Positions 5,778 through 26,005 of a stretch of DNA of 64,000 nucleotides are shown here, in pieces. Source of the stretch: Ianthella basta (Eukaryota > Porifera > Demospongiae > Verongiida > Ianthellidae); contig OZ025890.1 in NCBI GenBank assembly GCA_964019415.1, positions 1,121,458-1,185,457 on the forward strand, read 5' to 3'. The notes beneath the pieces were generated by a model. It saw nothing but the letters and a program-made list of their open reading frames with translations, was not told where the DNA came from and ran no database searches. A program made the position numbers and the translations under genes. Within the stretch, counting starts at the first letter, position 1, and each line of letters starts with the position of its first letter.

Positions 5778-8700
5778 CTATTGCAGTGATGTGTTCGATC
5801 TCGTCCTCTCCACCATCCGCAACAGCTTCGCTGGTCGGACGATTGTCACTGGAGACTGATTGCTTCCAGATCCCTCCATGAAGAGAGAGTGCTTCTGGTA
5901 GTGCAAAATGATGTCAGGGAGACTGTCAAAGGACCGCTGACCGATAGAATATGAGCCATCAGGGTTGGGGTCAATGTTGAAGTGGCGAATGCTGTAATGA
6001 TGTCGCACTGAGAGTGCATAGTAGCCGGGCTGCAGAGAGAAGAGGGGACAGCGTACCAGTGAGTGCAGGAAGTTTATCCAGTCAGTTGGCAATTATAACA
6101 CTTAAAAATGCTGAGCGACTGGTATCTGTGGGATTTAGATCCATAGTCACAGTCCTTAATAGTGAGAAGACCCGATATCAGGGTGGCCTCTTATGAGGAG
6201 GTTCCACTGTATAGCATACAAAACACTCTTGCTCTAACCTACCTTTCTGGGCCTCTCTCGCACAAGGAACTCTCTATTCCTCACATGTCCCTAAAAGAGC
6301 AAGGAGAATGAACAGGCAATGACAAGCGGAGACAACACAATAATTTATGTCAGATCTGTACGTTTTACTGACAATAAAACACATCACCCCAACCCCAACA
6401 CCAATGGGCCCCAAGATCCCTTACACTCCTCTCACACAGACACCCAACAAGGTGGGACTTGGTTGGATCAGAGTTAACAGATCAGAGTTAACAGATCAGA
6501 GTTAACAGGTTTGTGTGAAAAGTGTGATAAGTGTGCCAGCGCAATGACATGATAGTTCATCCTAAAATCTCGAAGCATTTATAAATGGGCAAATAGACAA
6601 TGGTGTGAATAACAAGTGACAAATCTAAATGCACTGTATATGTAACAGCAGAGATCTACCATAGTATGTAGTGTGGTGTGTAGGATGCGTGTGTGTACCA
6701 GTCTGAGTAGCCTTTCAGCTTCTGGGCGATCCATAGCTTTGTAAAACCACGGCTGCAGGTCTAGAGAAATAGAGTGGAGAACACTGTGTTGTGTGAGCGC
6801 ATCTCCACACATACGTACGTACACATATGCATATATAGCAATGCAGTGCACGTAGGCACTTGCACATGCACAAAGGGCACACATATGGTATATGTACATA
6901 CACCTTACTTATAAGTGTGTGGATACACACACATGCTGCGACGCACGCACGTGAATGCATACGCGCACGCACACACACACGCACACACACACACACACAC
7001 ACAACTCACCTAAAGATAGGGTCACGTTGCATACATACTGCCCTGTGTGGGGATCGGCTGGGGGTTCAGGCAGGGGACGCCGTTGAATCTGCGAATTGTC
7101 AGTTGGTGAGGTCATACCGTTGCTATGTGTAGCTGTCCCATTGCTAGGTGAGGGGACTCTGTTGCCAGGCAAGTCTGTAATTGAAGGAGCTGGCAGCTGT
7201 CTTCGATCTGCCCCTGGAGCATCTGTCGCTCTCTCTTGAGGCTCCTCAGAAGTCTCCGGAATATGCTCAAACACTCTTCTAGGCTTTGGTGGCGGTGCTT
7301 TTGGCTTGACACCGTCAGCAGCACTAAAGCTCTTCTTTTTGGGGATGTTTGGACCAAAGCCACCGGCTTGCTGCAGTGCTCTTGTCTCAGGCTAAAGGGG
7401 AAGAAATGCAGAAGTGCGTAGGCCAAAGTTATCGCAGAAGAGCTACCAATCCACCACAATGCCACATGCCGTAGTTCAGTGCTGTCAAGAATACACGCAC
7501 TCTGTGTTGTACGTACAGTAAATTTCCCCATCTTTGTATGTGTGTGCAAATAGTCCTATATCTACAATGAATGGGGTATGCCAGTATAAGCATAACATAT
7601 AGGAATCTAATGTGTTCCATTAAAGGGATTGTATAGTATGCATTTCGGTTGCATGTGATTGCAAGTGAAGGCAACTAAACGAAGGTGAAATTCATCCAGT
7701 GTCTTCCCTCACAGTGTACACCTCCAACAGAGAAACGTTAGCCCCCTTATCAAGTCAGTGACAGGGCTGTGCGGTCATGCGCTACTCACGCAGAGGAAAG
7801 GCTGCCTTTTGGGCCACACGGGACATCTAGAGCTTCCCATACAATGGTCACTAAAGGTGGCCTCAACTGGCATAATGGCCTTATACGAGCCTTACACAGG
7901 AACACCACTCAGTATATACCAGCTTTGCTAGCCTGTTTTGACCACCCTTCCCTCTCAACTCCTCTCTTTCTCCTCACTCCCTCACTTCACCTCCATCCTC
8001 ACCCCTCTCCACCCTCTTCCTCTCCCTCCCTCTTTCTCTGTCCCTCTCCATCTTTCTCCCTGTCCCTGCCCCTCTCCTTCCCTCTCCTTCCTCCCTCTAC
8101 CTTTGCCTCAATCTCCCTCTCTCTCCCTTTCTCTTTCCCTTCCTCTCCCTCTCCCTCTCCCGCTCCCTCCCTCTCTTTGTGATTGTTCCTAACATTACAA
8201 TTCAAATGTTGTAGTGAGGCTAACATCACAACATACAACTGTACAACACATACGTACATGTACAATGAACCACTCACAGTCGGTTCCCAAATCTCCTTTG
8301 GTGTCCAGCCCTCCTCTCCATCAATCCTCATGTACCACCATTCCTTGGACTCGGCAAGAAGCTCGCCACGGTCACGTACTTTCACACGCATGCACTCATC
8401 TGTCTGATCTGAGCTGGTGATGGCTGTGAAGATTCCAAGATGGTTTGTTGGTTTCGGCGAGGGTACAAACCTGTAGTTCAAGTACTCAGATTCTGGGTGA
8501 ATGACATTCTGATATACTTGACCTTCCATGCCCCCGTCCAATATGTCCGAAGATATATTTAAGTAGTCAACTGGGGAGTGGGGAAGAAAATCTTCGGCAC
8601 CCTCGCTAACCAACATGGCTGGGGAGTGAGGGGAGGGCACCCGATCGTGTTCCAGGATGGTCTTGCTGGCAATGGTTTGTGTTGATTCATTGAGAGGCTC

Positions 8701-26005: not shown

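Follow-up and report, generated by a model that had tools for sequence, protein, structure and literature searches.

In vertebrates, recruitment to lipids, autoinhibition by tandem SH3 domains and the reading of phosphotyrosine are split among p47phox/TKS proteins and NCK, CRK or GRB2. To our knowledge, neither p47phox (NCF1) nor SH3PXD2 (TKS4, TKS5) has an SH2 domain. The tandem SH3 domains of the p47phox family are characterized, according to Kalman and others (PMC12730246), by the GWW motif in both domains and an acidic pair in the second one, and further by a PxxPhiL patch in the first SH3 and a short acidic linker. Kawahara 2007 (PMC2121648) describes p47phox-like genes of limpet, sea anemone and choanoflagellate origin and places the choanoflagellate and early-animal proteins closer to SH3PXD2 than to vertebrate p47phox; a text search of its main text returned no mention of SH2. 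No report of PX and SH2 domains in one protein was found in the literature covered by our search, with most subscription journals lying outside of it.

The window analyzed here is a stretch of 64,000 nucleotides from the genome of the sponge Ianthella basta. Judging from its sequence, it probably contains a single gene for an organizer of the p47phox/SH3PXD2 family, in which the PX domain and tandem SH3 domains are followed by a degenerate SH3 and a C-terminal SH2 domain (Table 1). The addition of SH2 to this family is, as far as the literature was searched, new, while the family itself is known.

Table 1. Exons and the longest intron of the predicted scaffold gene, in window coordinates
Feature	Position	Strand	Basis
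Exon 1, start codon and PX N-terminus (aa 1-34)	25904..26005	-	gene model; ATG context AACCATGG
Exon 2, PX including the RRY lipid-binding motif (aa 35-61)	25708..25788	-	model, p47phox alignment
Exon 3, PX (aa 62-89)	23716..23800	-	model; acceptor weak
Exon 4, PX, KRQ aligned at p47phox Arg90 (aa 90-115)	21637..21713	-	model, p47phox alignment
Exon 5, PX end (aa 116-145)	21323..21414	-	model, p47phox alignment; donor weak
Exon 6, PX-SH3 linker	20523..20704	-	model
Exon 7, SH3-A first half	19532..19690	-	model, Pfam, p47phox alignment
Exon 8, SH3-A second half (GWW) and acidic linker	17091..17198	-	model, p47phox alignment
Exon 9, SH3-B (GWW, acidic pair)	16779..16969	-	model, Pfam, p47phox alignment
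Exon 10, PPR core, placed like the p47phox autoinhibitory region	16523..16599	-	model, p47phox alignment, motif scan
Exon 11, long: three YxxPRS, YSNL, polyproline, RPLP nos. 1-2	14881..16025	-	model, motif scan
Exon 12, phase 1-1, RPLP at end	14532..14570	-	model, motif scan
Exon 13, phase 1-1, RPLP at end	14367..14420	-	model, motif scan
Exon 14, phase 1-1, VPPR	14132..14191	-	model, motif scan
Exon 15, strongest donor in gene	13542..13748	-	model, splice scores
Longest of the 19 introns, 4,731 bases	8811..13541	-	model; poly(A) signal scan
Exon 16, YLNI, YQNV, YLNY and putative degenerate third SH3 (about 8436-8284)	8278..8810	-	model, motif scan, SH3 profile
Exon 17, proline-rich, RPLP no. 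5	7010..7391	-	model, motif scan
Exon 18, SH2 start, DR	6699..6760	-	model, Pfam, PDB alignment; donor weak
Exon 19, SH2 FLVR	6243..6290	-	model, Pfam, PDB alignment
Exon 20, remaining SH2, tail, stop	5778..6029	-	model, Pfam, PDB alignment

An independent rebuild of the gene (minus strand, 26005 to 5778) recovered the 20 exons joined without phase conflict of the original prediction, with GT-AG borders at all 19 introns of the spliced model. The protein consists of 1,311 residues followed by a stop codon and not of 1,304 residues as predicted; the gap probably reflects a seven-residue difference in the choice of the exon 10 acceptor. Since the splice sites were picked partly by phase, the finding that 19 of 19 are in phase is a biased test. 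The reading frame gives better support: likeness to p47phox and to SH2 fixes it in exons 1-5, 7-9 and 18-20, while exons 11, 16 and 17 have long open frames (477, 290 and 160 aa, respectively). Exon 3 has the weakest acceptor, matched by 22% of AG sites, and exons 5 and 18 have the weakest donors, matched by 6% and 10% of GT sites, respectively.

Pfam analysis of the 1,311-residue protein placed four domains in their families above the cut-off: PX (2.6e-12, best stretch 42-135), two stretches of SH3_1 (1.9e-17, 229-280 and 302-348) and the C-terminal SH2 (1.3e-17, 1196-1272). The nearest solved structure for the PX domain is p47phox (2.1e-15), which provides the first 4 of 14 PDB matches. In a HMMER search against PDB, p47phox is also the nearest for the SH3 pair together with the stretch behind it (4.4e-27) and occupies the first 6 of 85 matches, the seventh being SH3PXD2A. 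The original prediction had set the protein apart from both TKS and p47phox; by these matches its N-terminal half is p47phox/TKS-like, and it is the SH2 domain that distinguishes it.

The resemblance to p47phox extends to individual motifs. The predicted RRY of the PX domain is in place, beginning at residue 52, and corresponds to the RR motif of p47phox; arginines of the window PX are aligned opposite p47phox arginines 43 and 90, which we take to be the numbering of the PX lipid-contact arginines. Each SH3 domain of the pair has a GWW (at 260 and 331), as do both SH3 domains of p47phox, SH3-B carries DDE, and the linker between SH3-A and SH3-B, which opens with LEPLD as in p47phox, is about 17 residues long and, by eye, rich in D and E. 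The patch of SH3-A reads PASLL, with Leu at the position where PxxPhiL wants an aromatic residue (by eye), so this signature is incomplete; PxxPhiL with an aromatic Phi is a ligand-binding signature inside the p47phox/SH3PXD2 family and not a defining domain. Of the tandem-SH3 signatures given in PMC12730246, all are present by eye save the aromatic of the SH3-A patch. Behind SH3-B both proteins have a stretch containing Ser and Arg, which HMMER aligns with p47phox and where one of three PPR cores found by the motif scan is located (residue 382; the others are at 632 and 812). The strict autoinhibitory ligand pattern of PMC12730246, [PAVIL]PPR[PR][^DE][^DE], has no matches in the whole protein. 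By its nearest PDB matches, the N-terminal half appears to belong to the p47phox/SH3PXD2 family.

According to PMC8348221, p47phox lacks a third SH3, whereas the window protein has a putative degenerate one. With SH3PXD2 it shares the PX domain, tandem SH3 and a further SH3 in the C-terminal half; however, members of the SH3PXD2 (TKS) subfamily carry two or three more SH3 domains (PMC2121648), and in the window protein a single degenerate stretch followed by SH2 was found instead. This SH3-like stretch (about residues 1012-1062) has the EPS8L1 SH3 as its best PDB match (E 5.8e-4), and exon 16 scored 15.0 bits against a profile made from ten SH3 domains of the same genome. Of 2,000 shuffles, 262 scored at all, with 9.8 bits as their maximum, and the exon 16 match spans the second half of the domain only. 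Pfam made no SH3 call on this stretch. Two AlphaFold2 models built without alignment had pLDDT of 45.9 and 65.3, and Foldseek found no match for the second model at E <=0.001, the best one (E 1.5) being a non-SH3 and spectrin SH3 variants appearing from E 4.2 upward. The third SH3 was therefore rejected as a confirmed fold, and two small alignments of the SH3 stretches of the window were of too low quality for use. The SH3-like domain of the original prediction thus stands at the level of sequence, which supports a degenerate SH3, and not in Pfam or fold prediction.

The SH2 domain, in contrast to the SH3-like stretch, is called by Pfam, and the FLVR motif, with the intact arginine of the original prediction, begins at residue 1220. 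Together with DR at 1202 and IRHF at 1242, which were aligned to RASA1 and SYK, it provides, by PDB alignment, the FLVR arginine, the alpha-A arginine and the beta-D histidine, presumably the set of phosphotyrosine-binding SH2 domains. Among the best 60 of 259 PDB matches, RASA1 is the first (83.9 bits summed over two domains), followed by SYK, and the best match over a single stretch is PLC-gamma-1 (59.5 bits).

The stretch between the SH3 pair and the SH2 domain is rich in putative docking motifs. In residues 360-1020 there are four RPLP motifs against 0.04 expected, a number reached in none of 5,000 shuffles, and four YxN motifs against 0.64 expected, a number reached in a 0.0042 fraction of shuffles. 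YxxPRS occurs three times, with a maximum of two across 20,000 shuffles, while YxxP overall is not enriched (3 versus 2.2 expected). RPLP closes exons 11, 12 and 13, and exons 12 and 13 are small and have phase 1 on both sides; this looks like an SH3-ligand array that has grown by exon duplication.

The two halves of the protein meet at the 4.7-kb intron, and the splice sites flanking it favor a single gene. The donor of exon 15 scores 8.1, the top of 19, and is matched by a 0.0004 fraction of the 5,688 GT sites on the strand, the next donor within exon 15 scoring 2.0. Both of the best exon 16 acceptors, 8618 (4.1) and 8810 (3.9), are in phase with this donor; 8810 is used in the model, and the use of 8618 removes 64 residues. 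Five RPLP motifs are present in the protein, four upstream of the intron and one downstream, and YxN is likewise common to both sides. By the donor, the phase and the motifs, the original prediction of PX, tandem SH3, SH3-like and SH2 domains in one gene remains the best reading.

An in-frame TGA lies shortly past the exon 15 donor, and it is conceivable, though unlikely, that a single gene has two ends and gives rise to a short p47phox-like form stopping after exon 15 in addition to the long SH2 form. Such an arrangement is compatible with the one-gene reading, and the small phase 1-1 exons 12-14 would suit alternative splicing. The first 1 kb past this TGA contains neither AATAAA nor ATTAAA, which counts against a short form, but weakly, as the end of the gene itself also has no near AATAAA: the 1.2 kb past the final stop contain a single one, at position 4885, some 890 bases on. 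The same stop codon and the presence of an ATG (8805) near the start of exon 16, as well as the fact that the intron separating them is the longest of all, would also agree with two neighboring genes on the same strand. The first would be a p47phox-like gene with PX-SH3-SH3 that ends in exon 15, and the second a smaller adaptor with the SH3-like and SH2 domains, beginning in or before exon 16. We consider this two-gene arrangement unlikely, mainly because the exon 15 donor is so strong; the motifs common to both sides of the intron also argue against it, and the ATG of exon 16 has T at -3 where that of exon 1 has A. Within the intron there are two ATTAAA (12213 and 9479) but not one AATAAA, whose absence is weak evidence for the same reason as above.

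Relatives of the single PX-SH3-SH2 gene were sought in the same genome (209 Mb in 96 contigs, with the window on contig C23), the only animal genome searched. The window protein gave 34 matches, its own exons included; the others comprise SH2 places, kinase-type or otherwise, a tandem SH3 stretch on C22, a place on C15 with PX (2445760, 37%), where PX alone was matched in the surrounding sequence, and PX and SH3 at C23:2.36-2.375 Mb. The latter belong to a p47phox/SH3PXD2-like cluster (C23:2355000-2383000) of three PX-SH3 genes near 2.356, 2.366 and 2.375 Mb, two on the minus strand and one on the plus strand, two members being very similar and in the same orientation. In all three, the PX match covers residues 35-60, i.e., the same stretch as exon 2 of the window gene, and tandem SH3 domains are present, with a third SH3 that is clear in two of the genes and weak in the other (E 0.021). 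Unlike the window gene, these relatives have no SH2 that could be found: at E 1, nothing in the 28 kb matches the SH2 of the window protein, and the 28 kb are absent from the genome-wide list of 70 SH2 profile matches, of which the two on C23 are exon 20 and a place at 4.26 Mb. These searches go exon by exon, and the profile search missed exons 18 and 19 of the window gene, so a split SH2 can escape them. A 29-residue frame with FLVR letters at C23:2376242 (plus strand) was taken for chance, as other SH2 features were not seen in it.

The three relatives, in which no SH2 was found, support the view that a PX-SH3 scaffold gained an SH2, and the window gene is best read, from its sequence, as such a paralogue. 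The likeliest history is that a PX-SH3 gene was duplicated and then acquired the SH2 at its C-terminus. It is highly improbable that the gene encodes an ordinary NCK-type adaptor with a chance likeness to PX, since, although SH3 domains followed by a C-terminal SH2 are common to NCK and the window gene, NCK has no PX, the PX of the window protein is above the Pfam cut-off with p47phox as the nearest, and a distinct NCK-like gene, with three SH3 domains in one open frame and then SH2, sits at C22:5241134. Six pattern matches in bacterial and archaeal genome contigs included no confirmed relatives. Four matches to PF08030, which we take to be a domain found in NADPH oxidases, were obtained; the search for p22phox (PF05038) gave no match and was also silent on every control, and hence is uninformative.

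If the PX, SH3 and SH2 domains indeed reside in one protein, its potential ligands would include lipids of the membrane, partners rich in proline, and phosphotyrosine. At rest, by analogy with p47phox, the SH3 pair would hold the PPR stretch behind it, and after release the PX domain would bind a phosphoinositide membrane. The RPLP motifs might attract the SH3 domain of a Src-type kinase, and YxN and YxxP, once phosphorylated, may recruit adaptors of the GRB2 and CRK/NCK types. Through the predicted SH2, the scaffold could attach to phosphotyrosine of receptors, of adaptors or of further scaffold molecules, and would then be both a substrate of kinases and a reader of phosphotyrosine. Tentatively, it may represent a distinct, functional p47phox/TKS branch in sponges, perhaps an older one, in which a phosphoinositide-bound Src-substrate scaffold with its own phosphotyrosine reader locks onto phosphorylated copies of itself, leading to a switch-like membrane assembly. 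Should all three activities be combined in one protein, an early-branching animal would have wired scaffolds of the NADPH-oxidase or podosome type straight to tyrosine kinases, and the gene is a testable case of signaling-network growth through domain gain.

The surroundings of the gene and the assembly contain several further features. A tektin gene (26216-27581, plus strand; Pfam Tektin, three open frames) has its likely ATG at 26225, about 220 bases from the scaffold start codon on the opposite strand, perhaps with a shared two-way promoter. Downstream, on the same strand as the scaffold gene (minus), is a Piwi/Argonaute gene (4563-1412; Piwi_N 3.9e-15, PAZ 3.5e-28). In an intronic minisatellite at 17988-18749, a 57-base unit is repeated 13.4 times, and other minisatellites are located at 9729-10015 (35-base unit), 10051-10387 (23), 13806-14024 (33) and 18983-19235 (23). 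Intronic inverted repeats at 21870-21983, 20291-20383 and 12896-13013 have arms of 50, 45 and 56 bases that are 96, 98 and 84% complementary, respectively, and short loops, and are perhaps small fold-back elements. Among animals, a mitochondrial atp9 points to sponges. Contig C96 contains COX1 with nine TGA codons read in frame and, named by eye, nad, cox, atp and cob frames along with an atp9-like frame (L034:4877-5113), which fits a sponge.
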